Positions 2 to 62,388 of a DNA stretch of 64,000 bases are shown piece by piece. Below the pieces are notes generated by a model that saw only the letters and a list, made by a program, of their open reading frames with translations, was not told where the DNA came from and did not search any database. Position numbers and translations under genes: made by a program. The stretch comes from a bacterium (lineage in GTDB: Bacteria; Arandabacterota; Arandabacteria; Arandabacterales; Arandabacteraceae): assembly GCA_029933125.1 (NCBI GenBank), contig JAOZOU010000007.1, positions 62,001 to 126,000 of the forward strand, written 5' to 3'. Each line of letters opens with the position of its first letter. Positions within the stretch are counted from its first letter, which is position 1.

Positions 2-844
2 GTAACTGGAAGCGAGCTCGTCGGACTCATACCCCTTGGGGCCATGCTCGAAGCTGGGCGTTACTATCTTAAGAAGCAGGGTAAAACCACGGGTGTACCC
101 GAGCGTGAACTTGTGCACATTGCTGTTCTCTCTTTAGGCCTAAACGATCTCTACCCCTTTGAGCCTGAAAAGAAAATTATCGAATATAGGGTCGAGCGCC
201 AGGATAGTCTTGCATCTATGCGACTCAACGAATTCATTGATTTGCTTTCAACCGATGCTCCAGCGCCAGGCGGGGGTAGCGTTGCAGCCCTGAGTGGTGC
301 CATGGGTGGAGCCCTAGCCTCCATGGTCGCAGCTCTTACACACGGCAAGAAAGGCTATGAAGCCGTTTTTGACGACGCTGAGCGCCTCGGCGTTCAGGGG
401 CAGATGCTCAAGAAGGAATTTCTGGCTGATGTTGACAGAGATACCGATGCTTTCAATAAAGTGATGGATGCTCTCAGGCTGCCCAGGAAGACTGATGAGG
501 AAAAGAGGGAGCGGGAGCGGGCGATTGAGGAGGCAACCAAGCAGGCCACCCTTGTTCCACTTGGTGTTTTGAGACGTGCCTGGGAAGCAGCTCAGGTAGC
601 ACGGGAGATAGTTGAGAAGGGAAACAAGAATTCCGTGAGCGATGGTGGGGTTGCAGCTCTTATGGCGCGTTGCGCTGCCGAAGGTGCCTATCTAAATGTA
701 TGCATAAATCTGCCGGGCATATCAGATGAGAAATTCAAGACTGAAATCCTCAAAGAGGCTCAGGATATTCGTAAGAGAGTGGTAGAGCATACAGAGAAAA
801 CAGTGAGCATAGCAGAGGAAATAGCCAAGGGAACCCCAAGCTAG
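2..844 (+). CDS. Formiminotransferase-cyclodeaminase (FTCD), C-terminal part; 5' end lies outside the window
   Basis: The reading frame stays open upstream of the listed ATG (VTGSELVGLIPLGAMLEAG...). Contains FLDLLSTDAPAPGGGSVAALSGAMGGAL-type cyclodeaminase motif. Confidence 0.9.
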   Translation, partial: VTGSELVGLIPLGAMLEAGRYYLKKQGKTTGVPERELVHIAVLSLGLNDLYPFEPEKKIIEYRVERQDSLASMRLNEFIDLLSTDAPAPGGGSVAALSGAMGGALASMVAALTHGKKGYEAVFDDAERLGVQGQMLKKEFLADVDRDTDAFNKVMDALRLPRKTDEEKRERERAIEEATKQATLVPLGVLRRAWEAAQVAREIVEKGNKNSVSDGGVAALMARCAAEGAYLNVCINLPGISDEKFKTEILKEAQDIRKRVVEHTEKTVSIAEEIAKGTPS

Positions 845-2532
845 CCCTTATTGCCACCAGATGTGGTTTCGATTGGACAGAGTCTCTCCACAAGCGAAAG
901 ATAGGTGCCCAGGGATTCCTCAAGGTCTGAAAAATTCTTGAAGAAGAGATCTTTGATGAAACGCTTATTCATGTATCCAGCTATCAGGGCTTCGAACATC
1001 TCATTACCCAGCATATAACCTAGAGCATGGGTTAGACCGATGTGGAGGCGCAACGGGAGCTCGTACATCTCACCTCCGGTCCTCCACATTTTTCCAGTTT
1101 GAAGATATGTTTGCTCAAGCTGCTTGTGTCTTCGTGCGAAGTGACCAATGATCTTGAGATCCTCGATTTTCTCAGGTGGTTTGGTCGAATACTTTCTTCG
1201 GATGTGTGTAAAGTCCTCAAGTTTGGGGCTCTTGCGCTTGTGGTTTACAATCTTTGAGCCGAAGAATCCAAGCGCCTCACGCATCACGCGACAATAGAAA
1301 TCCTCAACACGGCTGAGGTTTTCACGCCTTGCCCCAGCACATGTCTTGTGTATGAAATGGGTTGCTTCCTCAGCAGCATGATTTATCGAGAGGTTTGCAA
1401 TGTATATGATATTCGCTTTCTCAATGAAGTAGGATTCATTGTTACCTATGTGCTCGGCTATTGTACGTATTTCACTCAGGGTGAGTTTATAGTTGTCTCG
1501 CAAGTCATCGAGAAAATCGAGATCAGCGGTAGAGTAAACTGTGAAATCATCCAGACCGGCGACATCGATGCCGAGAAATTCCGTTATTATCCTTACGAGG
1601 TCAAGAATCTGAGCATAGAGATCGCAATTGCCTGTCCATTCAGGCCCCCACGACTTTGGATATGGCGAGGCAAGCTCCCGAGTATTTTCGATCCAGTTTA
1701 GGAAGGATTGGAATTTGATGACGGGAGGGGTTGTGATAACGCAGAACTTGTTTTCATCAATGACGACTACGTCTGTTTCCTGCTCAAGTCCACGGCGTGC
1801 AAGCTCCCAATAGATGTTTTCATTGTTCTGATATATGATAAGGCTTCGGGCTTTGAGACCGTGTCTTGCGAGTTTCTCATCAACCTCCCTCGGCAGGTGT
1901 GAAGGTGCGACATGTAAGTCGCCATCGAAGACATAGACGAGTCTATCACGGTCGTTGATGTACTCGGATGCTATAACCTCAGCTGCTTGGCGATCTCTGC
2001 GCCTCAAGGCTCCACGCCCTCTGTTATCCTCTGAGTTCATACCAACCACCCGGATAGAATTGTCCTTTGCAAAGATGAAAAGGTCACGATAATTTTCCCA
2101 GGGAAACCCCCAAGTTTTATTGTAGTCGATGGCTTCAAGGAACTGTTGCTCAGAGATCTCGTCTCTCATAAAGCGATCAAGAATCTTCTGGTGCTCAATA
2201 TGAACGGTCTCGAGAGCAAGCGTTATCTTGGATCGCTTCTCTACGAGTGCTCGAAGAATCCTCAGGGGAATCCTCTGCGCTTGAGCCATTGTATGATAAT
2301 CGCCATTGTAGATTATCTCGGCCTTGCTAGCAGCCACGATAAGCTCATTCATTGTAGAGCATCTTAAGAAGTTGCTAAACTCAGCTTCATACTCGTGGTG
2401 ATATCTGAGAAGTTCCTTGCCTGGCTTCTTGAGGGATGCACGGATCTCGTCCTGAAGCTTCTCAACTATGCGCTTCTGGATTTCGATCAGCTGAAGACGG
2501 CATCGAGATCTTGTGGTCATGAAAATCCGCAC
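841..2532 (-). CDS. ChaN/TraB (Tiki superfamily)-like protein with extra C-terminal domain
   Basis: 563-aa ORF with IIYNGDYHTMAQAQR...LALETVHIEHQKILDRFM...VVGMN, typical of ChaN-like haem-binding uptake domains. Confidence 0.65.
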   Translation of the reverse strand: MRIFMTTRSRCRLQLIEIQKRIVEKLQDEIRASLKKPGKELLRYHHEYEAEFSNFLRCSTMNELIVAASKAEIIYNGDYHTMAQAQRIPLRILRALVEKRSKITLALETVHIEHQKILDRFMRDEISEQQFLEAIDYNKTWGFPWENYRDLFIFAKDNSIRVVGMNSEDNRGRGALRRRDRQAAEVIASEYINDRDRLVYVFDGDLHVAPSHLPREVDEKLARHGLKARSLIIYQNNENIYWELARRGLEQETDVVVIDENKFCVITTPPVIKFQSFLNWIENTRELASPYPKSWGPEWTGNCDLYAQILDLVRIITEFLGIDVAGLDDFTVYSTADLDFLDDLRDNYKLTLSEIRTIAEHIGNNESYFIEKANIIYIANLSINHAAEEATHFIHKTCAGARRENLSRVEDFYCRVMREALGFFGSKIVNHKRKSPKLEDFTHIRRKYSTKPPEKIEDLKIIGHFARRHKQLEQTYLQTGKMWRTGGEMYELPLRLHIGLTHALGYMLGNEMFEALIAGYMNKRFIKDLFFKNFSDLEESLGTYLSLVERLCPIETTSGGNKG

Positions 2533-2766: not shown

Positions 2767-5700
2767 ATGGCGAGAGACTCGCGAGAACAGAAGGAAAATT
2801 CCCGGGAATTCGCCCGCTTCGTAGAGCGAATCGAAACTCTAGTGGAAGAGAAAAATTGGGAAGAGATCGGCCGTGAGCTTGAAGCTCACAGGCGCGCCTA
2901 TGCCGATTTCGCTGAATTTCACTACTTCTGGGGAAGATATCTTGCACATCTCGATGAGGGTGATCCCATCAAGCACTTTCTAAAGGCAATTGAAATTGAT
3001 CCGGGAGATTCACGCTTCTATGAGGCAGCTGCTAGAGTCTATCGGCAGAGAGACAAGACCGATGAGGCTATAGCTATTTTGCGGCGTGGGACTTCACAGG
3101 CAAGAGATGCTGCTCAGCTGTATCTTTTGCTTGAGGACTATGCGTTTGATAACGAAGATTATGACCTGCTCGAAGAAATCGTTAAGGAATTTAGGGAGCG
3201 ACATGGCGATAGCGGGCCGTTTCTGTATCGTACGGCGCAGTCCTATTACCGCGCTGGACTCATAGCCAGCTGCCTCGATACCCTTCGACAGTGCACCGAC
3301 ATTAACCATTTCGGTGAGTTCCACTATCATTATCTGGCATTGAGTTGCGAATATTACCAGTCGGCCTATGACCTCAGCCATCGCACTCTTGTCTTCTACC
3401 GAAAGCAGCTTCGGAGAACGCCTGAGGATCGCGATCTTCATATGCAATTACACGCGTTTGTAGTAGCTCAGCCTCAACTCGTGGCCGAAAAGGTTCGGCT
3501 GGCACTTTTCCACATCTCTGGCGGGTTTGCTCGAATATACGGACGGCTTCATGATACCCGGTATCTTATGAGCGACGAGGAGGCAAAGCGGATTTTCACG
3601 GAGTGGGAATCGCAGGAATTACCCGGTCTTGAGTTTGACTACGAGTTTTTCGGTGAGATCTATTTATACCTGGCTCGAAATGCTGACCGCTATCCTGGTA
3701 TTGAGTTCGATCTGATTGAGCGCATCAGACACATAAGCGCCAAGCTTAAGGAACTTGGGCAGACCACACCAGCAATGGTTTTTGATGGTTGGGTTGAATT
3801 TCTCGATGGCAACATAAATGAGGCGGATAAGATCTTTTCCCAAGTCTTGGAGAGACCTGATAACGAGGATATGTCGGGAAACCTCCGGGCGCTGCTCAGC
3901 GAGGGCAGGGCTTGTGTCGATGATCAATTAGAACTACGACTGCCTGGATCCGAAATTTCCGGCAAAGGAGAGAGCTTAGATGACAGCCGGCTACTGACCT
4001 ACGGCTCGAATGTCTACAAGACTGCCAAGAATGATCTGATTGTTGGTCTGGATCCGCTCGTCCGAAGAATGGTTGACATTATAGGTAAGGGTACGATCAA
4101 GAGCATTATTCTCACGGGTCCGTCAGGTGTTGGTAAGACTGCAGCTATCAAAGGCCTCGCCCGATTCCTCCAGAAGCGAGCCTGTCCAGGTCACCTAAGG
4201 GGGAGCAGGATCTTCCAGATATCGACAACCTCGCTTCTTTCAGGCGCAAAGTACATTGGTATGTGGCAGGATCGATTGAAGACTATCTGTGAGGCGGGCA
4301 GTTTCAAGCGGAAGGTGATTCTTTATTTTGAGGACATCGCCAATATCTTTGGCGCTGGCAAGACTGAGGGTAGTGAGGCTCGCTTCGCCGATTATCTCAT
4401 CCCTCGCATGGAACAGGGAGAGATAGTACTCATTGGTGAGATGGACACAGAGCAGGCTCAAACGATTCTCTGGGTTGAACCACGTTTCAGGCGGCTCGTA
4501 AACCTGATTCCTGTTGAAGAGCCTGAGCAAGATAAGGCATTCGATATTGTCAAAGCGGTTGCCGATCGTGACGGTGAGAGCAGGGGTGTGGTCTTTGAAC
4601 CCGAAAGCATACGAGAAGCGATTGACCTGACGACAGCATTCATGCCTTATAGAGCGCTTCCTGGGAAGGCAATTGATGTTATTCGGCAGGCGGCTGAGAT
4701 CTTCGGCGATGGAAAGCGAGGGCAACCTGTGCACATAACACAAGAAGAGATTGTGCTTACCTTCTGTGAGATAACCGGCATCCCGGATCTCATAGTTGAC
4801 AACAACCAGGTTGTAAACATCGACAGGATGAGACAATTCTTCACTGATCGCGTCCTTGGTCAGGATGAAGCAGTCACTGCCATGATGAATGCTGTGCTTG
4901 CGGTCAAGGCAAGGCTCTGCGATGATCGCAGACCCATCAGGAGCTTCCTTTTTGTTGGACCCACAGGTGTTGGCAAGACTGAATCGGCGAAGGTCCTGGC
5001 TGAGTTTCTCTTTGGAAGCCAGGATCGCTTGATCAGGGTTAATATGTCGGAGTACAACATGCCAGGGGATGTTGACAAGCTCCTGAGATCATCGCGGGGA
5101 GGGCGCATCCATGAAAGCCATCTTCTGAGCTCAATCAGGAAGAACCCTTTCAGTGTGGTGTTACTCGATGAGGTTGAGAAGGCCGATCGAAAGGTGCTAA
5201 ATCTTCTGCTTCAGCTGCTTGATGAAGGCCTGCTGCGTGATGATGCCGGCAAACCTGCGAATTTCCAGTCCTCGATTATCATTATGACATCGAACATCGG
5301 CGCTCGCAGATATACCGCACAGACAATAGGTTTCGGGAACCATCAGGAAGTAGATACTGTCCAGTCGGCTGTCCTTGATGATGTGAAGCGATTCTTCACT
5401 CCTGAGATCTTCAATCGATTTGACGAGGTCATCTGCTTTAAGCCACTGAGCAAGAAGGTCTTAAGCACTATCATCAATCGGGAGATCGGCAAGGTGCTTG
5501 AGAGGCGTGGTATCGTGAGCCGAGAGATCTCCGTGGACGTCGATCCGCTTGTCAAAGAGTACATCATCGAGACCGGCTACGACCCGAAGTATGGTGCCCG
5601 TCATCTGAGGCGAGCCGTGGAGAAAGCAGTTGCGATTCCGCTGGCTACCCTGATGAGCACGACCAATGTTGTGAGGGGAAGCCGTATCCGTATCAATCTT

Positions 5701-6852
5701 GTTGATGGTAAGCCCAGGGCGTGTGTGGTCGAACTTGAGATGCGTGAGCTGGTTGATGCCGAAACAGCTGCGGTGCGAGAGATCAAACTGTCGCGGCTTG
5801 AGATACCGGATCGTGGACTTCGTAAGATGTTAGCCTCAATGGAGAGTCGCATCTCCTCACTCAAGGACCATCTTGGACTTGAGGAGACACTTAAGCGGAG
5901 GGAAGAGCTCCAGCGGCAGATGGTAGGACCCACATTTTGGGACAATCCTTACAATGCAAACAGCGTGCTCAAGCAATTTGCAGAGGTCAACAGGAAGATT
6001 GAGCGAATACGTCGCTGGGAAAACGTCTATGAGAAGATCAAGTCTGCAGTGATGGGCTCTTCGGTGGCTGGCAAGGTGCCCACGCGTGTTAAGTCGCAGA
6101 TAATAGGACTCATGAAGGATCTTGAATCTGCTGAAATGGAGATCCTACTCGAAGGCAGGCATGACTTTGCCGATGCATTTCTCATTCTTGAGGCTCAAGG
6201 TGCAAGCCGAGAGGACATTTCCTGGCTGGTCGATATGACGGGTGTATATCTAAACTGGGCGAAGCGTCGTGGCTATCATGCCAGATTTGTAGGCGAAGTA
6301 CCCCTGACCGATACAGGTGGCTACCGGGTTATTCTTCATATCGGTGGGCTCAATACCTATGGGCTGCTGAGGAATGAGGAGGGGATACATCGTAAGCAGG
6401 TAGCAAGGCAGGTTGGAAAGCGAACCCAATTCAAGCGATATGATTGCAAAGTAACGGTGCTTGCAGATGTCCATTCTGCAGAGGAGATGGGAATAACAAT
6501 CCAGCGACATATTCGCAACATCAAGCCACCTCGTAGAGGGCACAAGATGCGGGTGCTTTCAAAGCGGGTCTCTGTAAGTCTTCCTGATAAGAGTGTGGTA
6601 CTTGAGTTCTTCAGTGATAAGACCGTTGAGATTGACAGGAAACTCGCCGATGATCTTTTCCTTGCTTATCTCAGCCATGTCAGAAGCGAGCGTCCGGCAC
6701 CTCGCCACGCTATTTGGGGCTCGCTTGTACGAATGCTCGAGGTGGGAAAATCTGGACGAATTATCGACTATGCATCCAACACTGTAATGCGAAATGTAAA
6801 GGATTATCTTGGCGGTAAGATTGATTCCTTGCTGCTTGAGCGACTCACCTAA
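2767..6852 (+). CDS. TPR + two AAA+ (ClpA/ClpB-type) ATPase modules + RF2-like (PCRF/codon-recognition domain) C-terminus without GGQ
   Basis: Walker A GPSGVGKT (nt 4117-4140) and GPTGVGKT (nt 4957-4980), Walker B SVVLLDEVEKA, ClpB D2-small domain KYGARHLRRAVEKAVAIPLA. From about nt 5815 the protein matches the RF2 pattern: REELQRQMVGPTFWDNPYNAN...LLEGRHDFADAFLILEAQGASREDISWLVDMTGVYLNWAKRRGY...YGLLRNEEGIHRKQVAR. Confidence 0.88.
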   Translation: MARDSREQKENSREFARFVERIETLVEEKNWEEIGRELEAHRRAYADFAEFHYFWGRYLAHLDEGDPIKHFLKAIEIDPGDSRFYEAAARVYRQRDKTDEAIAILRRGTSQARDAAQLYLLLEDYAFDNEDYDLLEEIVKEFRERHGDSGPFLYRTAQSYYRAGLIASCLDTLRQCTDINHFGEFHYHYLALSCEYYQSAYDLSHRTLVFYRKQLRRTPEDRDLHMQLHAFVVAQPQLVAEKVRLALFHISGGFARIYGRLHDTRYLMSDEEAKRIFTEWESQELPGLEFDYEFFGEIYLYLARNADRYPGIEFDLIERIRHISAKLKELGQTTPAMVFDGWVEFLDGNINEADKIFSQVLERPDNEDMSGNLRALLSEGRACVDDQLELRLPGSEISGKGESLDDSRLLTYGSNVYKTAKNDLIVGLDPLVRRMVDIIGKGTIKSIILTGPSGVGKTAAIKGLARFLQKRACPGHLRGSRIFQISTTSLLSGAKYIGMWQDRLKTICEAGSFKRKVILYFEDIANIFGAGKTEGSEARFADYLIPRMEQGEIVLIGEMDTEQAQTILWVEPRFRRLVNLIPVEEPEQDKAFDIVKAVADRDGESRGVVFEPESIREAIDLTTAFMPYRALPGKAIDVIRQAAEIFGDGKRGQPVHITQEEIVLTFCEITGIPDLIVDNNQVVNIDRMRQFFTDRVLGQDEAVTAMMNAVLAVKARLCDDRRPIRSFLFVGPTGVGKTESAKVLAEFLFGSQDRLIRVNMSEYNMPGDVDKLLRSSRGGRIHESHLLSSIRKNPFSVVLLDEVEKADRKVLNLLLQLLDEGLLRDDAGKPANFQSSIIIMTSNIGARRYTAQTIGFGNHQEVDTVQSAVLDDVKRFFTPEIFNRFDEVICFKPLSKKVLSTIINREIGKVLERRGIVSREISVDVDPLVKEYIIETGYDPKYGARHLRRAVEKAVAIPLATLMSTTNVVRGSRIRINLVDGKPRACVVELEMRELVDAETAAVREIKLSRLEIPDRGLRKMLASMESRISSLKDHLGLEETLKRREELQRQMVGPTFWDNPYNANSVLKQFAEVNRKIERIRRWENVYEKIKSAVMGSSVAGKVPTRVKSQIIGLMKDLESAEMEILLEGRHDFADAFLILEAQGASREDISWLVDMTGVYLNWAKRRGYHARFVGEVPLTDTGGYRVILHIGGLNTYGLLRNEEGIHRKQVARQVGKRTQFKRYDCKVTVLADVHSAEEMGITIQRHIRNIKPPRRGHKMRVLSKRVSVSLPDKSVVLEFFSDKTVEIDRKLADDLFLAYLSHVRSERPAPRHAIWGSLVRMLEVGKSGRIIDYASNTVMRNVKDYLGGKIDSLLLERLT

Positions 6853-11674: not shown

Positions 11675-13909
11675 GTGGATACCAAGGCAGAACTTAGACA
11701 CCTTGAGGAACTGATTGCATCGGGCAGGCTTGAGAGTGCGAAACTCCATTATCGCACCATAGCGGATCGTCTGCGATGCAGAGGTGAACAGGAAGAGCAC
11801 GTTGTTCTTGAGCTTTTCAAGGCACAGATTCTTGCTGGTGAGGATCGCTACGAAGATGCCCTTGATGTCGCCATACGGGTTTTGGAGAGCGCACGCCACC
11901 TCAATCTGCGTGATAAACTTGCTCGCTGCCACCTTCTGGTGTCTGCCATTCTGCTCCGAATCGGAGACTACCATGGGGCAAGATCGCATGCAGAGGCATG
12001 TGTCTATTTTGCCAATTGGGAAATTGACGATAGAGCCTTCGAAGGTGATGCTCACATAAATCTTGGGCTCGCTCTTAAGAATCTTGGAACTTGGGATGAG
12101 GCTGAGCGTCATTTTCGAGAAGCCATCAGGGCTTACGGAGCAACGAGCGATAACATCAGACGTCTGAGAGCCTCGCTTAATCTCGCAATTCTTCTGCGAA
12201 AGACGGGGAAGATCACTGAGGCTTCGGAAATTGCGCATCACGCATTCAATAAGTCACGCCTCCTTGCTGTGCCCATCGGAATTGCTCGCTGCTCTCTTGA
12301 GTTGGCAAACATTGCCATAATCGGGCGAGACACAGATGAAGCCGCAAACTACCTTGAAGCTGCCCGTAAGGTAATTGATGAGGAGAAGTATCAGCGTGAA
12401 GGTTTGCTGGTGCTTGAGATTGAAGGCGACATAGAAGCCTTGCGCGGCAATCATCGCAAGGCTTTAGCCGTATACACGAGAGCTCTCAGGATGGCAAATG
12501 AGCTGGCAGCTGGCGGTGACATAGTTGCTGAGCTTCTGAGAAGATGTGCATCGAGTCAACTCGCCCTTAAGCGTCTCCGTGCAGCACGCGAACGGATTCA
12601 AGAGGCACTTTCACTCAATGAGGAGACGCACGATGCATATGAAAGGGCTATCTGTTTGCGCATCTTGGGCGAGATCGAGATCGCCAGTGGGCTCATGGGC
12701 AAGGGTATTGCCAACCTTGAGGAGGCCGTGAGCGAGTTGACAAGACTCTCAGGATGGTCACCCGAGCTCGCAGTTGCGGAGGAAGTATTGGGTAGGGCTA
12801 TGCTCATATCTGGTGAAGACCGGCATGAAGCTGCTGCTCATCATCTTTTGATAGCACGGCGAATATATTCGAATCTTGGAATAAGTTCCGCCGTCAGAGG
12901 CCTTGATGATGTGATTTTGTCAGCCATCACAGTCAATCGCACTCTCAAGAAGGAAAGAGCAGCCCTCGGTGGCAACGTCAGCATTGTTTCGAGAGCTCGC
13001 CTCAATCCCCGGAAGTTTGGAATGGTGACGGAGGATGAACGGATTGTTGGCGATCTCGAAAGGTGGGGTCCAACTGAGGCTCGCATACTCATTGAGGGTG
13101 AAACGGGCGTGGGCAAGGAAGTTATGGCACGCGCTCTTCACGCCATGAGTCGTCGTCGGGAAGGGCGCTTTGTGGCGGTTGATTGTGGGGCTCTCAATGA
13201 GACCTTGGCCGATAGCGAGCTTTTTGGACATACGAAAGGTGCGTTTACCGGCGCTATGTGGGACAGGGTCGGACTCATTGAGGAAGCTGGCGGCGGAACA
13301 CTTTTTCTTGATGAGATAGGCGAGCTGGGCAAGTCGCTGCAGGTCAAATTGCTGCGTGTGCTTGAAGAGGGTGTGGTAAGACGGGTTGGTGAGAACACGC
13401 CTCGTGCTGTAGATGTACGCGTTATAAGTGCGACTGCGCGCAATCTCTGGGCTGAGGTTGAGGCTGGCAATTTCAGGCGGGACCTCTATTATCGCCTCAA
13501 GACAGCCATAATTAGAATACCGTCGTTAAGAGAGCGCCCATACGACATTGAAGCCCTCTTCAGACATTATCTTGCTTTCTATTGTGAGCACTATCGAAGA
13601 CATCTCGAGATCGATCATGCCGCAATCACGGAGCTTTTGCGCTATGAGTGGCCAGGCAATGTGAGGGAACTTAAGAACTTTTGTGAAGCTCTCGTAATCT
13701 CAAAGCCTGACGGAACGATAGTGCCATCCGATGTCATTGCCCTCCTCAATGGTGGACAAGGCAATGCCTCCCTTGAAGAACGGCTCGATAGAACAGAGCG
13801 GGATGCCATCCTCAGGGCTCTCAGGATATGCCAGGGCAATCGCACTAGGGCGGCAAAGATGCTTGGCATAAGCCGCAAAACGCTTTGGCAAAAGCTTAAG
13901 AAGCTTTGA
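11675..13909 (+). CDS. TPR-domain sigma54-dependent transcriptional activator (GTG start)
   Basis: [34 protein letters not shown], and a Fis-type [27 protein letters not shown]-terminal TPR repeats in place of a receiver domain. Confidence 0.92.
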
Positions 13910-38039: not shown

Positions 38040-41000
38040 GTGCAGGATGCCGATCTCCAAGGGATCAAGCAGTTACTTAGTGAGTACGACTCGGTTGAGA
38101 AGGGTTGTAGTTTCTTTCGACAGCTGGGTTATGAGGTTTTGGATCCGCCTGTTTCCTTCTCGCTTGAGGATCTCCCTCAAGGTGCGACTGAGTCGATCCG
38201 TGATGTCTATGAGCTTGTGAATGTCGGTCGGCCATCACCCTTCCGCGTCTTCCATGTCCAGCTGGAGGATGGAGCGATCCGCCGAACACCCATCCGGAGA
38301 TTCCTCGAGGCGTTCTATCGGCATCACCCTCAGGGCGAGAATCTCTTCGTGTTCTCTTCGAAGGACCGTTTTGATGAGCTGGCATTCGTGTCCCCGGTGC
38401 GCATCCCTGATCCCCGAGATAGTGCGAAGGTTCGCCTTTGGCTTCGCTACCTCCAAGTGCAAAGGACTGATCCCTACCGGACTGATCAGGAGGTTCTAAG
38501 TCGGATCCGGGCAGACGGGATACGCGACGCAACTAAGATTTGGGAGCTTCACAGAGAAGCCTTCAGTGTCCAGCGCGTCACGAAGGACTTCTTCAAGGAC
38601 TATAGCAAGATCTTTGGACTTGTAGCCAAACATCTTACCGAGATGCATCCCAAGAAGGGCTCCGAGTGGGCTCGCAGCTACGCTCACCAGCTTCTCAACC
38701 GCATCATGTTCATCTATTTCATTGCACGGAAGGGATGGCTGTTGGGACCGGACGGTGGGCCAGACCGGAACTTTATGCGCAACTTCTGGGAGGCGTATCG
38801 AGAGGCGAAGCTAGCATCAAGGCGAAAGCGCGACACCTTCCACCGCGACTGGCTCTCAGTACTCTTCTTTGAAGCTTTTAACAACAGGTGGCAAAACCGC
38901 GCTGAGTATCGCAAACGCTTTCCTGATTGGCTCATCAAGTCGCTTTCCCAAGCACCTTACCTCAATGGTGGTCTCTACACGGAGAACCGAGAAATCGATG
39001 GCTCCCTTCAGAAATATCTTTCAGATGAGGTGTTTGAATATCTCTTCGAGAAGTGGACCGACAACACTCCCCTCGGACTCTTTGAGCGTTACAACTTCAC
39101 GGTCGTTGAAAGCGGACGCTTCGACGAAGAGGTTGCAGTTGACCCCGAGATGCTCGGAATGGTTTATGAACGTTTGGTTAACATTGCCTTCGAGGTCGGC
39201 CAGGAAGCTGAAGAAACGGACCGCAGGGGTGAGGCTGGTATCTTCTACACCCCGCGCACAGAGATTGATCTCATGTGCCGGCTTTCTCTGGTGGACTGGC
39301 TCAGCAATCAACTCGGTGAGAAACACAAGGATCTTCTGTATCACTGGATTCTTGCTTTCTCAAGTGATGAGAAGGAAGAGGCTGACGAGAGGGTGACAAG
39401 GCAAGGGATGTGGCGCAGACTTAATGACCTTCTCCGCCGTGTCCGGGTGTCTGATCCCGACGTGGGTTCGGGTTCCTTCCTCATTGGCATGATGCTCGTC
39501 CTCGATGACCTGCAGGCACGGTGCAACAATGCTCTTGGTGAAGGTGAGACTCCCTACGAGCGGCGCAAGCGTATCTTGCGAGATCAACTATATGGTGTTG
39601 ATGTCATGGAATGGGCTGTCCGGGTTGCCGAGCTCAGGCTGTGGTTGCAACTTGTTGTGGAAACGGAGCTCCGCCCTGCGGAACGTCGCTTCAAACCACT
39701 TCTGCCCAACCTGAACTTCAAGCTCCGCTATGGCGACAGCCTCCTCCAAACAGTGGGTGATGTTGATATGAGCCCGTTCCGTCGAGCCAAGCTACCCATC
39801 TCGCGTCCCCTCAAAGGGCGTCTCACGAAGCTGCAGGGAAAGAAGCGCCACTTTTTCCAGGGTGAAACCAAGGGGCTCAGCGAGGAAATGCTCCTTAAGG
39901 AAGAGCTTGACCTTTTCCGTGCCATTCTTGATGAAAGAATCCATACGCTGAAGAAAGAGCTGAAGCGGGTGCGCCAGAGGCTTGAGGATATGAAATCACA
40001 GGGAGACATTTCGGAGGAGATATCAGGGTCAGGACGAACAGCGAGGGTGGCTCGCCAGGTAGAGGAGCAGATCGAGAGTTATGAGGAAGAGCTTCAGCGC
40101 TTCGAAGAGACCAGACGGGCTCTCAGGTCAGATCGGCCCCCACCTTTTGTCTGGGACATCGCATTCGTTGAGATTTTTGAGAGTGAGAATCCTGGCTTTG
40201 ACATTGTCATTGGGAACCCCCCTTATGTCCGCCAAGAAAAGATAAGCGACTATCTTGGGCGATTCGACCGGCGGGAATACCTGGAGAGACTTAACGACAG
40301 CCTCAGAGAAATCTACCCCGATTTCATGGGCAGGAGACGCAGGATCAGTGGAAGAGCAGACTACTACATCTATTTCTACCTACATGGTCTCTCGCTTTTG
40401 GCAGACAAAGGCACATTTTGTTTCATAACATCAAACTCATGGCTTGACGTTGATTTTGGCAAGGATCTCCAGGAGTTTCTGCTTTGCCATTGCCACTCAA
40501 AAATGGTGATCGATAACCGGGCCCGCCGGAGCTTTGCCCAGGCAGATGTCAACACTGTGATAGTACTCTTGGGTCAGCCCGATCGGAAACGGCGACTTGG
40601 GCGAAAGGAAATGCAATCCCGCCATGTGCGCTTTGTAGCTTTCAAGGTCCCATTTGAGGAAGCCCTGAGTCCTGTTGTGTACCTGGAGATCGAAGACAAG
40701 AAGGCTTACCGTCACATGGCGAACTTCCGTGTACTCAAGCGTCCTGAGTTCCGCTCGGTGCTCTGGGATCAGTGGTCTCTCTACCGGGAGGGGCTGGCTG
40801 AGCCAGAAGCTTGGACCGAAGAGGAAGAGGGAAAGTACGAAGGCGACAAGTGGGGTGGCAAGTATCTCCGAGCTCCCGACATCTACTTTACCATTCTTGA
40901 GAAAGGCAAGGGTAAACTCGTGCGCCTTGGCGATATCGCCGAGGTGCGTAGAGGATTCACAACAGGTGCTAACGAATTCTTCTATCTCCAACCTGTTGAT

Positions 41001-41930
41001 ATGACAGTCAAGCAGGTTTCCGAAGTGGCAGCCAAGAAGCCTAGGACCCCTGTTCGCGTCAAGAACGGTGCAGGCTGGGAGGGGGAGATTGAAGCGGCAT
41101 GGCTCCGCCCTGTAATCAAGAGCCCACGCGAAATCAAGACCCTGCAGGTACGGCTGGAGGATCTCAGCAACTTGATTTTCATACCACCGGATGGCGTTCG
41201 CAGAGTGATGGACACTTCCTCTCGCAGTGGAGTGCTTCAGTGCCTCAAGAAGCAGTGGCCTAAAGCTGTCGCCTACATCCGCTGGGGCGAACGGCAAGGC
41301 TACCAAAACCGCCCCACTTGCGCAAGTAGACCATGGTGGTGGGATGTAGGGGATCCGCGTATTCCGACGGCGATATGGTTCAAGGCATTCAACGATAGGT
41401 TCTTCGTACCTCATAATGACGTTGCACCATGTAGTGACAGGTTGTACGCCATTCACTGTGCCCAGGGCCCTGATGCTATGGCTGTCTCGGCAGCTATCAA
41501 CTACACGGCGCAGACCATTATCGCTGACGCATGCGGCAGAGTCAACCTTGGCGAAGGCGCGCTGGATAACATGACCTACGAGGCTGCGCGGAACTTGGTG
41601 CTAAACCCACCGGTCATCGATCCTGGCCAGAGGAGGAAGCTGGCGCAATCCTTTAGGGCTCTGGCCTGCTGTCCAGTGCGCAGCATCTTCCAGGAACTTG
41701 GGTTTGATCTTTGCCCGCTTAGTCGCTGCCAAGACCCAGAGCATCCATATGAACATGTCAAGCCCGAGGAGCTCACTCTCGACCAAGTGAAAGCTGCTTC
41801 GCCAGACCGATTCGATCTCGACTCAGTGGTCTTCGACGTGCTCGGGCTCAGTGATGACGAGCGACTTGAGGTCTACAAAGCGGTCGCCCAGCTCGTCAAA
41901 GACCGCCTCGTCAAAGCCAGGAGTGTATGA
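38040..41930 (+). CDS. Eco57I/PglX-like large N6-adenine DNA methyltransferase (possible type IIG enzyme)
   Basis: 1296 aa, GTG start; SAM motif DPDVGSGSFLIG and catalytic GNPPYVRQ. Confidence 0.9.
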   Translation: MQDADLQGIKQLLSEYDSVEKGCSFFRQLGYEVLDPPVSFSLEDLPQGATESIRDVYELVNVGRPSPFRVFHVQLEDGAIRRTPIRRFLEAFYRHHPQGENLFVFSSKDRFDELAFVSPVRIPDPRDSAKVRLWLRYLQVQRTDPYRTDQEVLSRIRADGIRDATKIWELHREAFSVQRVTKDFFKDYSKIFGLVAKHLTEMHPKKGSEWARSYAHQLLNRIMFIYFIARKGWLLGPDGGPDRNFMRNFWEAYREAKLASRRKRDTFHRDWLSVLFFEAFNNRWQNRAEYRKRFPDWLIKSLSQAPYLNGGLYTENREIDGSLQKYLSDEVFEYLFEKWTDNTPLGLFERYNFTVVESGRFDEEVAVDPEMLGMVYERLVNIAFEVGQEAEETDRRGEAGIFYTPRTEIDLMCRLSLVDWLSNQLGEKHKDLLYHWILAFSSDEKEEADERVTRQGMWRRLNDLLRRVRVSDPDVGSGSFLIGMMLVLDDLQARCNNALGEGETPYERRKRILRDQLYGVDVMEWAVRVAELRLWLQLVVETELRPAERRFKPLLPNLNFKLRYGDSLLQTVGDVDMSPFRRAKLPISRPLKGRLTKLQGKKRHFFQGETKGLSEEMLLKEELDLFRAILDERIHTLKKELKRVRQRLEDMKSQGDISEEISGSGRTARVARQVEEQIESYEEELQRFEETRRALRSDRPPPFVWDIAFVEIFESENPGFDIVIGNPPYVRQEKISDYLGRFDRREYLERLNDSLREIYPDFMGRRRRISGRADYYIYFYLHGLSLLADKGTFCFITSNSWLDVDFGKDLQEFLLCHCHSKMVIDNRARRSFAQADVNTVIVLLGQPDRKRRLGRKEMQSRHVRFVAFKVPFEEALSPVVYLEIEDKKAYRHMANFRVLKRPEFRSVLWDQWSLYREGLAEPEAWTEEEEGKYEGDKWGGKYLRAPDIYFTILEKGKGKLVRLGDIAEVRRGFTTGANEFFYLQPVDMTVKQVSEVAAKKPRTPVRVKNGAGWEGEIEAAWLRPVIKSPREIKTLQVRLEDLSNLIFIPPDGVRRVMDTSSRSGVLQCLKKQWPKAVAYIRWGERQGYQNRPTCASRPWWWDVGDPRIPTAIWFKAFNDRFFVPHNDVAPCSDRLYAIHCAQGPDAMAVSAAINYTAQTIIADACGRVNLGEGALDNMTYEAARNLVLNPPVIDPGQRRKLAQSFRALACCPVRSIFQELGFDLCPLSRCQDPEHPYEHVKPEELTLDQVKAASPDRFDLDSVVFDVLGLSDDERLEVYKAVAQLVKDRLVKARSV

Positions 41931-43010: not shown

Positions 43011-43751
43011 ATGAGCCACTATTCGAAGATCGAGTGGACCGAGAGAACTTGGAATCCGGTTACTGGTTGCACCAAGGTCAGCCCCGGTTGCAAGCACTGC
43101 TACGCTGAGCGCTTTGCTCGGCGACTACAGAAAATGGGGAACCCAAGATACCGAAACGGTTTTACATTAACACTCCACGAGGACCTGTTGGAATTGCCCT
43201 TGCAGTGGAAAAAGCCATCGATGATCTTCGTAAATTCGATGTCTGATCTTTTCCACGAACAGGTGCCGTTTAGATTTATCCTTAGAGCTTTTGAAACGAT
43301 GAGGAGGGCGGACTGGCATGTTTATCAAATCCTTACTAAGCGATCTTCAAGGCTCGCTGAATTAGCGGACAAGCTGGATTGGCCCCGAAACATATGGGTG
43401 GGCGTTAGCGTGGAGACTGCGAAGTTCTACGAGCGGATCAAGCACCTGCAGGCGGTCCCGGCCGAGGTGCGGTTCGTCTCATGCGAGCCTCTGCTGGGTC
43501 CCCTTGATAATATGCCGCTCGAAGGTATTCATTGGGTGATCGTGGGCGGAGAATCTGGCCCTAGGGCAAGGCCGATGCGTCTACGGTGGATCCTGTCGAT
43601 AATGGAGCAGTGTCGTAGATCGAACGTTCCGTTCTTCTTCAAGCAGTGGGGTGGAGTACACAAGTGGAGGAACGGTCGTGAATTGATGGGAAAGGAGTTC
43701 AACGAGATGCCACGCTTCGAGATAGCAGGTGTCTGGAGAGGGAGTAAATGA
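43011..43751 (+). CDS. DUF5131 / phage Gp37-Gp68-like three-Cys-motif protein
   Basis: [36 protein letters not shown] 1 nt after the tcmP stop. Confidence 0.9.
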
Positions 43752-46700
43752 ACCCTATCTCCGACCTCATTGACAATCGTAGGCACACACTTGCAGAGGT
43801 CCTGCGTAGCATCTTATCACAAAGCAAGGATCCTCGCTTGGATGTCGTGACTGCCTTCTTTAACCTCAAAGGGCTTGAGGCTCTCGAGCCGGAGATCGAT
43901 GCCCTGGCTCAATTGCGGCTCCTCCTGGGCAAGGAGCAAGAGCAGGGTTTCGTCGTCGGACAGCGTCTCCTTTCTGAGCTCGAGGATGCTACCTCCCGAG
44001 GGGAAACTACTGGCGCGGAGATTGGACGATGGTATGGATTCCTTGCCGGGGACACTGTTGAGGTTCGATGTTACGAGAAGGCTTTCGTTCATGGGAAAGC
44101 GTATCTCTTAGATGGGGTACCTACCTTAGGTTCTTTGGGCATCGTGGGTTCCTCCAACTTCACGGGGGGTGGACTCACTACCAATCTCGAGCTCAACGCT
44201 GTTCTCAAGCAGGCCTCAGCGATCAAAGATCTGAAGGCCTGGTTTGAGGATCTTTGGAGTGAGGCGGAGGATTACAAGGCAGACCTCCTGGCACTGCTGG
44301 GGCGGTTCACGCGTACTTATACGCCTTACGAGATCTACATCAAGGTCATCTATGAGGCACTGCGGGATAAGCTGGACGAGGAACTTGCAGAGCGTGATGA
44401 TCATCCATCACCGATTGCCCTGACCGACTTTCAACATGATGGATACTTAGCAGCTCGTGAGATCTTGGAGAACTACGGTGGCGTGATCATCGCTGATTCA
44501 GTCGGTCTTGGCAAGACCTATCTTGCTCTTAGGCTCTTAGAGGACTATGCCTACCATGAGCGGCAGACCGCGCTGGTAGTGTGTCCTGCCGCCATCGCTG
44601 ACACGGTCTGGCGTCCTCTACTCCAGCGGTTCGCAATCCCTCACGAGACCATCTCAATGGAGCGGGTGAGCCAAAGTGATTTCCCGGTTGATGAGTATGC
44701 GGCCAAGTTCCGGATCATCGTTGTGGATGAGAGTCACAATTTCCGCAACCCAGACACCAACCGCTGGCAAAACCTTTTCAGGATTATTGCTGAGGGCGAT
44801 CCGGACAAGAAGGTCATCCTCCTCACCGCTACACCTGTCAACAACACTGTATTTGACCTCTATCACCAGTTGCGTCTTATCACCCGAGATGAACGCCGCT
44901 TGTTTCTCGCTGCGGGCATTCCTGATCTTTTCACCTACTTCCGACGCGCTGAGGAGAACAAGGAAGCCCTGTATGAGGTTCTGGAGGCGGCAGCTGTTCG
45001 GCGGAGCCGACCTTTTATCCGCACCAACTACCCCGAAGCGGAGATCGACGGACAGAAAGTTAGGTTCCCTGAGAGAAAACTGCATACGATAGACTACAGT
45101 CTTAGCGAGACCTATGGACCTGATCTCTATCGCAAGGTTGCCAAAGCCATTGAGGAGCTCTTTCTCGCCCCCTATCAGATCGATACCTACAGGCGCGAAC
45201 TGATTAAGGCGAGGAAGGTTCGCTTGGGGCAGCGGAATCCGTTTGAAGATCCAAACGAAAGCGAAGATACCATGGTCCAGAGGCTACAGGAGACCTTTGG
45301 TTGGTCCAAGAAGGAGGCACACGAGTTCCTGATGACTATTGGTCGCCAGACAGCACTCGCACATATTATGCGGGTGCTCTACCTTAAGCGGCTGGAATCC
45401 TCGATCGAAGCGTTAAGGATTTCGCTCGGTAGGCTCAAGGGTTTTATGGAGAAATTTCTCGAGGCACTTGAGAAGGGTAGGCTCCTTGAAGCTGGTGAGT
45501 ACCGCCGGTGGTTGCAGTTGGAGGACTCCTGGGACGAGGATGGGGAGGCATTTGACTTTGATGCTTTCATAGATGCTCTTCCCACCTTGCCCAGTGGCAA
45601 GTACGATGTCGAGAGCATCCGGAAGGCTGTTAAGGCTGACTTAACCGCGCTCGAGAACTCCCTTTCGGAACTGTCAAAGGAGCGGACTGATGATAAGCTC
45701 GAATCGTTAAAGGCACTCCTTTCGTCGCCGGAGCTCCTTGGAAGAAAGGTCGTGGTTTTCTCGTACTTCAAGGATACCGCTCGCTACATCTACAACGAGA
45801 TCAAGCAAGACGAGCAGTTTTTGTCGGACCTGGGGCATAAGCGCATTAGCATCGTCGATAGTAATGTCAAGCCCTACGAGCGGCGTGGTCGCATTGTACG
45901 GTTTGCGCCGCAGGCTAACGGCGAACCAGACATGGCAAAGGATCAGCAAATTGATCTCCTCATAAGCACAGATGTGTTGTCAGAGGGGCAGAATCTGCAG
46001 GACGCTGATACAATTGTAAACTATGATCTTCATTGGAACCCAGTTCGCATGGTGCAGAGGGTCGGCCGGCTTGACCGAATTGGCTCACCCCACGAGGTGA
46101 TTCATGTATACAACTTTTTCCCTGAGGAGGAGCTGGAAGACATTCTCCGCCTGCTTAAAAGACTTCACGATAAGCTGAATGCAATCAACCGGACAGTGGG
46201 TCTCGATGCCTCAATACTCGGCGAGACACCGAACCCGATGGACTTCAACATACTTCGGCGGCTTGAGCGAGAGGACAGAAGTACACTGGAGGAATTGGAG
46301 GAAGAGAGCGAACTCACGGTGGGCGAGTTCCTCAAGCAGGATTTGCTACGGTTCCTTAAGGAGGCTGGTGAGGAAAGGCTTAAGGAAATTCCGCTAGGAG
46401 TTGGAACAGCGAAGCAGACTAGGGAAGGATCTAAGGGCTTCTTTGCAGCGTTTCGTAATCCGCTCACGAGCCAGCATCACTGGTTGTTCTTCGATGAGGG
46501 GAGGGGACGGATTGTGGAGAGGCGACTCGAAGCCATAAAGGTCATCCGTAGTGAGGCGTCCGAGGGTCCGGCCGCTCTGCCTGAGGATTTTGATCCCAGA
46601 CCCATGATCCAGAAGCTTCGACGCCATCTATGGAATCGTATCCGCTCGGCGGCTATAGCCCCGCAGAAGTTTCCGTCACCGCAACGGCAGGTCATAAACT

Positions 46701-46966
46701 GGCTTCATAGCCTACCCCCCTCGGCTGATCGCAACACTCTGCTGGGATATTTTGAAGCTAGGTCAATAGCTGGTCCTGACCTGAAGGAGTTAAGGCGCCT
46801 GTGGCGATCTCGTTCCCAGCGTCCTAGCGAGGAATGGCAGGATATGCTTATGGAGTTTGCTGAGAGCCACCCCCATCCACCCTCCCCGGGCGAGGTCGAG
46901 CGAGCCCTTGCGCCCCAATCCGAGGAAGACCTCGAATGCATCGCCTGGATGCTCATCGTCCGGTGA
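43748..46966 (+). CDS. PLD-nuclease-domain + SNF2-family helicase
   Basis: HGKAYLLD...[10 protein letters not shown] (HxKx4D PLD motif), [16 protein letters not shown] (Walker A), [30 protein letters not shown] overlap with the upstream gene. Confidence 0.92.
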
Positions 46967-61566: not shown

Positions 61567-62388
61567 TTATGCTTTTGCCTTCGTCTCTTCGTAGATGTGG
61601 ACATCACGCTGGGGATACGGGATCGAAAGCCCAGCCCGCTCGAGTTCCACCTTGGCTTTCTCAAGGGTGTCGAAGTAGACGGACCAGTAGTCAGACGGCT
61701 TGGTCCATGGACGGCAGACGAGGTTCACGCTGCTGTCACCAAGCTCCGAGACCGCAACCAGCGGCGGTGGATCCTTGAGCACTCTTGGATCGGACCTGAC
61801 GATATTCTCGAGCACCTCCTTAGCCTTCTTGATGTCATCGTCGTAAGAGATGCCGAAAACCATTTCAAGCCTGCGCTTGTCAATGGCGGAGAAGTTGACG
61901 ATCTTGTCGTTGGTTATCTGGGAGTTGGGAACGATTATGCGACGATTGTCAGGATGATTCAGAATCGTTGTGAAAATGCCAATCTGCTCGACTGTTCCCG
62001 CTACTCCCGCAACCTCGACAAAGTCACCAACCCTAAAGGGCTTGAAAATGATGAGCATAACTCCAGCGGCGAAATTGGAAAGCGACCCCTGCAGAGCCAG
62101 ACCAATTGCAAGACCAGCAGCACCCAACAACGCAACAAGCGAAGTCGTTCTGATGCCAATTTTGTCGATTGCGGCAATAATGACGAAAGCCAGAAGCAGG
62201 AAGTAAGCAAGCCTCGCAAGGAACTTTGAGAGGGTTGGATCGATATTGCTCCTGTCCATCAGCCGCTTGAGCAATTTTGCTACAAGCCCTGCAACCCAGC
62301 GTCCGATCACAAAGATCAAGACCGCCGCGACAATCTTAAATCCATATGTCATCAAAAAATCGGGCACCTTATGAAGGAAATCCTCCAT
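61567..62388 (-). CDS. MscS-family mechanosensitive channel
   Basis: VALLGAAGLAIGLALQGSLSNFAAGVMLIIFKPFRVGDFVEVAGVAGTVEQIGIFTTIL. Confidence 0.92.
   Translation of the reverse strand: MEDFLHKVPDFLMTYGFKIVAAVLIFVIGRWVAGLVAKLLKRLMDRSNIDPTLSKFLARLAYFLLLAFVIIAAIDKIGIRTTSLVALLGAAGLAIGLALQGSLSNFAAGVMLIIFKPFRVGDFVEVAGVAGTVEQIGIFTTILNHPDNRRIIVPNSQITNDKIVNFSAIDKRRLEMVFGISYDDDIKKAKEVLENIVRSDPRVLKDPPPLVAVSELGDSSVNLVCRPWTKPSDYWSVYFDTLEKAKVELERAGLSIPYPQRDVHIYEETKAKA

Follow-up and report, generated by a model that had tools for sequence, protein, structure and literature searches.

What might a bacterium do with a protein in which a Clp-type ATPase continues, without a break in the reading frame, into a release factor? 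The question is raised by a gene at nt 2767 to 6852 (forward strand) of the window, by which we mean the whole 64,000-nt stretch of DNA analysed here (positions 62,001 to 126,000 of contig JAOZOU010000007.1, assembly GCA_029933125.1, from a bacterium of the Arandabacterota). A preliminary description had seen there one uninterrupted frame of 1361 aa with TPR-like repeats at the N-terminus, two AAA+ modules and a C-terminus resembling release factor 2 (RF2), and both the translated open reading frame (ORF) and the Pfam domains of the protein (TPR repeats, AAA, AAA_2, ClpB_D2-small and PCRF) agree with this. The protein is neither a functional release factor nor a ClpA, ClpB or ClpC, as judged by curated cut-offs, by its first AAA+ module (D1) or by its pore loop, but it plainly descends from both lineages. 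As for its function, the reading that we tentatively favour is a ClpP-docking, double-ring AAA+ ATPase of the Clp/Hsp100 type into which an inactivated RF2 has been built for targeting. The features of the gene are as follows, with the evidence for each in brackets.

2767..6852, +, whole gene, 1361 aa: TPR-like N-terminus, probable pseudo-D1, second AAA+ module (D2) and RF2-like module (ORF and translation, Pfam, NCBIfam, same-genus ortholog, remote homologs)
2767..4020, +, N-terminal region, helical, without Clp_N; TPR repeats, clearest at residues 71-122 (Pfam on the segment alone)
4021..4716, +, D1 AAA+ module (motif alignment with six canonical Clp controls and the genome's own ClpC and ClpB)
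4834..5706, +, D2 AAA+ module (Pfam AAA_2 and ClpB_D2-small; motif alignment)
5056..5118, +, D2 pore-1 loop region without GYVG (G[YFI][VIL]G in 0/30 members; the canonical controls have the motif)
5326..5334, +, IGF, where ClpA, ClpC and ClpX have their ClpP-docking [IL]G[FL] loop (motif alignment)
5815..6849, +, entire RF2-like module (PCRF, phmmer to RF2, hhalign, AlphaFold model matched to RF1/RF2 structures)
5833..6126, +, RF2 domain-1-like helices (alignment with RF2; helices at pLDDT of about 80-90)
5929-5949, +, PTFWDNP motif within the domain-1-like helices (alignment with RF2)
6184..6225, +, tip of the codon-reading helix, with GGxE lost and EAQGASRED in its stead (release-factor alignment)
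6361..6441, +, GLLRNEEGIHR retained, then QVGKRTQ in place of the SPF tripeptide (release-factor alignment)
6523..6552, +, remnant of the GGQ loop, reading PPRRGHKMR, without GGQ (phmmer and release-factor alignment)
6715..6837, +, C-terminal RF2 signature, WGS-VR...I-D...L-GG-ID (aligned with WGSQIRSY...VKDHRT...VLDGNID of RF2)

The RF2-like stretch, which had been proposed to begin at about nt 5815, is real. Pfam places PCRF (PF03462) at residues 1043-1211 with 63.2 bits against a cut-off of 24 (E 3.6e-17), phmmer aligns the C-terminal module to residues 9-347 of the 352 residues of RF2 (9fy1) with E 2.9e-19, and in hhalign the C-termini of nine members of the fusion family match the genome's own RF2 over 308 columns, reaching its last residues (probability 99.8, E 9.6e-29). 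Judged from these alignments, the homology is with all of RF2, well beyond the part covered by Pfam's PCRF. The match is not a product of chance, since with a release-factor profile the unshuffled C-terminus reaches 77.8 bits and the best of 1000 shuffles 3.8; no other ORF of the window exceeds 1.9 bits against the profile. The score with the curated NCBIfam model for prfB is 89.3 bits, far below its cut-off of 370.

Two AlphaFold models of the C-terminus, the first from a three-sequence alignment (mean confidence score, pLDDT, of 52) and the second with RF1 sequences added (pLDDT 61, the last third still poor), both have RF2 as their top-ranked Foldseek match (E 2.2e-10 and 8.8e-15). With VIA-align, about 131 residues from the domain 2/4 region superpose on RF1 or RF2 in the ribosome-bound state (2.8-3.6 Å, Z of about 15). 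The Foldseek and VIA-align matches of the second model are partly circular, because RF1 rows are in its alignment; the first model has no RF1 rows and also ranks RF2 first. The models are thus supportive of an RF2-like fold, at low to medium confidence.

What has this module kept of a release factor? We aligned 18 fusions with the RF1 and RF2 of the same genomes, using the numbering of the genome's own RF2. The GGQ, the SPF/PxT tripeptide and the GGxE tip are missing from all 18. Lacking a GGQ domain, the protein is no rescue factor of the PrfH/ArfB type either. In the window protein QVGKRTQ follows HRKQVAR at the SPF position and PPRRGHKMR stands where GGQ would align, so that the preliminary description was right about both absences, but it had missed the third loss, that of the GGxE tip. 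Among the other positions that never vary in RF1 and RF2 but are gone here are the Arg that follows the HR motif and, near the stop codon, the Thr of the HT pair. Domain 3 of the window protein is a remnant without GGQ. Other positions are retained throughout the 18 fusions: W29, Y134, W137, G167, L174, E177, G179, H181, R306, D318, G334 and D337. The Trp of the PTFWDNP motif is equally constant, as are the E-x-G-x-H motif and the Arg, Asp, Gly and Asp of the C-terminal signature. The module is also under purifying selection, because the ratio of nonsynonymous to synonymous substitution (dN/dS) is 0.13 between the window and the genome G001 of the same genus, where synonymous sites are close to saturation, and ranges from 0.14 to 0.20 in four pairs from a bacterial family with large genomes. 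The alignment supports the earlier view of a module derived from RF2, devoid of the motifs for peptidyl-tRNA hydrolysis and stop-codon recognition and fused to a Clp-type AAA+ ATPase; the module itself would release no peptide.

For the ATPase half, the ClpB and ClpC of the same genome and the six canonical Clp controls served as references. Each AAA+ module has a Walker A motif, exactly where the preliminary description had placed it (GPSGVGKT in D1, 4117-4140; GPTGVGKT in D2, 4957-4980). Beyond its intact Walker A, D1 has a degenerate Walker B in the window protein (FED, 4315-4335), with FED, PRF, RD, QD, DG and other variants across the members, and the Walker-B Glu, sensor 1 and the Arg fingers are lost in every member and intact in the controls. 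D1 is probably a pseudo-ATPase, which would bind ATP but is unlikely to hydrolyse it. Its pore loop is retained in the window protein (AKYIG, 4246-4260); an aromatic D1 pore loop (KYIG or KYLG) is found in most members, the single-gene members of the large-genome family being without it. D2, by contrast with the degenerate D1, is catalytically complete as far as its motifs tell: Walker A, Walker B (5155-5184), sensor 1 (5287-5301), Arg finger (5413-5424) and sensor 2 (5593-5607) are all intact.

Between sensor 1 and the Arg finger of D2, every one of 30 members has the tripeptide x-Gly-Phe (xGF) with variable flanks, and x is hydrophobic in all of them but one. The LGF loop of ClpC docks on ClpP, its presence tells ClpC from ClpB, and it is accepted as marking ClpP partners (PMC10149685). 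Because the GF never varies while its flanks vary freely, docking on ClpP is the simplest account, and we infer from the motif that the fusion protein docks in this way. In the motif alignment the loop is absent from the genome's own ClpB, and since the window protein has it as IGF, its D2 is ClpA/ClpC-like rather than ClpB-like, which amends the earlier label 'ClpB-like D2'. ClpP is encoded in 13 of the 13 genomes tested. At the other end of the protein, Pfam on the N-terminal segment by itself (428 aa) gives TPR_19 at E 1.1e-7, and its list of 14 families with E of 1 or less does not include Clp_N. The curated NCBIfam cut-offs for Clp proteins are all missed by a wide range (ClpA 391 of 993 bits, ClpB 381 of 1232, ClpV 315 of 885).

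At least seven further bacterial lineages have proteins of the same architecture, as found by profile searches with the alignment of AAA+ and release-factor parts together; the preliminary description had suggested such a search. In the phylum of the window genome, two of the eight genomes examined carry the fusion, namely the window genome and the one of the same genus. Elsewhere it is present in 9 of 201 genomes of a second phylum, in both genomes of a third, in 1 of 5 of a fourth and in 11 of 80 of a fifth; 1 of 12 genomes of a sixth phylum has a copy that is broken by masked bases, with the release-factor part not seen. The best-sampled carrier is the large-genome family (mostly genomes of 7-13 Mb), where about 80 genomes have a fusion of about 940 aa, and Ulvibacterium marinum of the Bacteroidota carries it too. 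A spread-out sample of 386 genomes has members in 11. A scan of contigs was swamped by ClpB, the conserved pattern being in D2, and of its 80 loci we counted only L105 and L106 as members, because they matched well beyond D2. Viral contigs, scanned with a member of the large-genome family as query, gave no relative. PCRF is recognised by Pfam in all single-gene representatives tested, two members of subfamily B being barely above the cut-off.

In a tree of D2 alone the family stands apart from the canonical Clp proteins (support 100/98), and in a tree of the release-factor module the fusions stand apart from RF1 and RF2 (100/99). Both trees fit a single ancient fusion followed by divergence, and the order of events that can be read from them is limited by long branches and possible horizontal transfer. 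The N-terminal parts vary by lineage, from TPR-like in the window protein through an apparent membrane helix with helical repeats (in members such as L246 and L247) to next to nothing in the large-genome family. This variety suggests a common core engine to which the lineages have attached different domains for clients or localisation. Subfamily members L246-L252, whose release-factor domain 3 is deleted, have a strongly conserved C-terminal VRxYRELPDPLVKDRxRGWRTGRLDRVLxGDFD. Tandem triads of paralogs occur in a further lineage (G135, G271) and in the large-genome family. In the triads at L241 (12336-3246, reverse strand) and L202 (1123-15279, forward strand), three adjoining ATPases with pseudo-D1 and a D2 without pore loop have release-factor modules that decay stepwise, and their N-termini resemble, by eye, a HicB-like fold. 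The A, B and C copies of the triads pair as orthologs between two lineages in the D2 tree, which suggests a conserved heteromeric machine.

Could the fusion be the cell's own termination factor? The genome encodes, elsewhere, an intact RF2 (GAGGTE, SPF, GGQ) and an intact RF1 (PVT, GGQ), as a check proposed in the preliminary description had asked, and a substitute role in termination is thereby excluded. Separate ClpB- and ClpC-like genes and a ClpP are encoded in the same genome as well.

How, then, might the protein work? In the targeting-arm reading, D2 would be the motor that hydrolyses ATP, seated on ClpP, and D1 a nucleotide-controlled, non-hydrolysing ring that could grip or gate, using the aromatic pore loop that most lineages have. 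The RF2-like arm would recognise a partner shared with ordinary release factors, an idea that comes from its ancestry only; candidates are a stalled, vacant or split ribosome, or a factor that binds release factors. The arm would then put this partner, or else its nascent chain, within reach of the ATPase and the peptidase. In its most specific form, the family would be a dedicated ribosome-directed AAA+ protease, that is, an ancient class of ClpP-partner ATPase in several bacterial phyla with an inactivated RF2 as recruiting arm, which would link degradation (or remodelling) to ribosomes that are stalled, split or idle; we consider this form rather unlikely. The anatomy and the family are well supported; docking on the ribosome is an inference, and one that the lost decoding contacts weaken.

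Several observations weigh against this reading. Every compared residue of the decoding centre is lost family-wide and mainly scaffold positions are retained, which makes A-site binding in the manner of RF2, the idea of the preliminary description, doubtful and not to be expected from the alignment. One subfamily has no release-factor domain 3 at all, and some of its members are seemingly membrane-anchored; in the tandem paralogs the release-factor modules are barely recognisable, PCRF being found in one of six triad genes. No gene neighbour is common across lineages in two all-against-all comparisons, and hence no genomic tie to translation; operon context was dropped as a functional clue. 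The presence of ClpP is weak evidence, since 12 of 14 control genomes also have a match. Finally, the pore-1 loop of D2 is the substrate grip of Clp unfoldases, and its absence throughout the family makes processive threading into ClpP, which the xGF loop normally serves, questionable. The term 'unfoldase' of the preliminary description is borne out for the ATPase residues of D2 and the docking loop, but not for D1, a probable pseudo-ATPase, or for a D2 without pore-1 loop.

Nearly as likely as the targeting arm, and like it a possibility, is that the RF2 fold has been turned into a generic module for protein-protein contacts or oligomerisation of a ClpP-partner ATPase, selecting clients or coupling subunits, with no link to the ribosome and with RF2 as a historical accident. 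All decoding and catalytic contacts are gone and the invariant residues are mostly scaffold, domain 3 could be dispensed with in one subfamily, N-terminal domains come and go (TPR, membrane anchor, none) and no translation-related neighbours are found, all of which such a module would allow. However, three parts are still recognisable at only 20-30% identity between lineages, namely domain 1 (including the FWD motif), domain 2 and the R/D/G/D signature of the C-terminus, and in a free module the loss of some of these parts would be expected.

We think it unlikely that the protein is no unfoldase at all but a AAA+ switch or scaffold without pore loop, in which ATP hydrolysis by D2 remodels a complex without threading a polypeptide (for example, ejecting something from the ribosome) and xGF is either a leftover of ClpC ancestry or serves in ClpP gating. 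The lack of GYVG in all 30 members and the pseudo-ATPase D1 of all members speak for it, but a strict GF amid freely varying flanks is hard to explain without docking, and most lineages have retained an aromatic D1 pore loop. Much less probable again is a decoy or regulator of termination, whose arm would bind RF3, rescue factors or factors that modify release factors and turn them over via ClpP: domain 1, with which RF3 interacts in class-I release factors, is retained, but the GGQ loop, target of the release-factor methyltransferase, is gone. An assembly or annotation artefact uniting a clp and a prf gene, which the preliminary description had named as a possible refutation, has practically no chance of being correct, since the genome, although a draft of 176 contigs, gives no support for a join, G001 has a 75%-identical ortholog (apparently frameshifted), single-contig genomes such as G492 and G666 have the same architecture, and RF1, RF2, ClpB and ClpC are separate and intact.

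The ortholog of the same genus is broken into two frames that overlap close to the D1 region (L009 1588-4242 and 129-1682), by a draft-genome error or a recent frameshift. Directly upstream of the fusion gene lies a divergent gene for a ChaN-like protein (844-2532, reverse strand; Cofac_haem_bdg), which adjoins the fusion gene otherwise in G001 only. Membership in a defence system was considered and rejected, the PADLOC matches of the protein being generic to AAA+ and mostly to D2. Elsewhere in the window there are two likely defence genes, one for a type IIG-like restriction-methyltransferase (38040-41930; PADLOC 168 bits) and one for an HKD/PLD and SNF2 helicase protein (43748-46966; PADLOC C3a139, 285 bits; DrmD-related). 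A TPR-containing sigma-54 activator with a Fis-type helix-turn-helix is encoded at 11675-13909, and a homolog also lies near the family member of G058, probably by chance.

A fusion this old, widespread and selected has a role from which many bacteria benefit. Should the arm have kept its recognition of ribosomes or of their partners, the fusion would be a direct physical link between translation and the Clp protease; if it has no link to the ribosome, it is a clean example of a universal translation factor converted to another use, on a AAA+ machine without the standard substrate-gripping loop. Ulvibacterium marinum and the large-genome family offer culturable carriers. The fusion is not described in the literature searched (full text of open-licence papers), and a review of release factors (PMC6514570) mentions neither Clp nor PCRF.

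How does the family compare with known systems? We know of no Clp ATPase that carries a translation factor. With the ClpA and ClpC of ClpAP and ClpCP the fusion shares two AAA+ modules, an intact D2 motor and the xGF docking loop, and ClpA gives its best NCBIfam score, but it has no Clp_N on its N-terminal segment, no D1 Walker-B Glu or Arg fingers and no D2 GYVG, and it adds an RF2-like C-terminus of 350 aa. The ClpB/Hsp104 disaggregases have similar D2 and D2-small domains, whereas the xGF loop is found in the fusion family and not in ClpB, and the D2 clade is a separate one. ClpI of the Actinomycetota is likewise an evolutionarily distinct Clp class, beside ClpB and ClpC, with conserved motifs for ATP hydrolysis and unfolding, but we found no release-factor part in its description (PMC10149685). 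RF2 itself (prfB) has in common with the fusion domain 1, domain 2/4, the C-terminal signature and the same fold; the fusion differs in lacking GGQ, SPF and GGxE and in being joined to AAA+ modules. To our knowledge, release-factor derivatives known so far keep the GGQ end and not the decoding-arm end. PrfH and other rescue factors derived from release factors are, like the fusion, release-factor paralogs with a new job, but PrfH acts via its GGQ domain, whereas the fusion family has given up the GGQ and kept the scaffold of the decoding arm.

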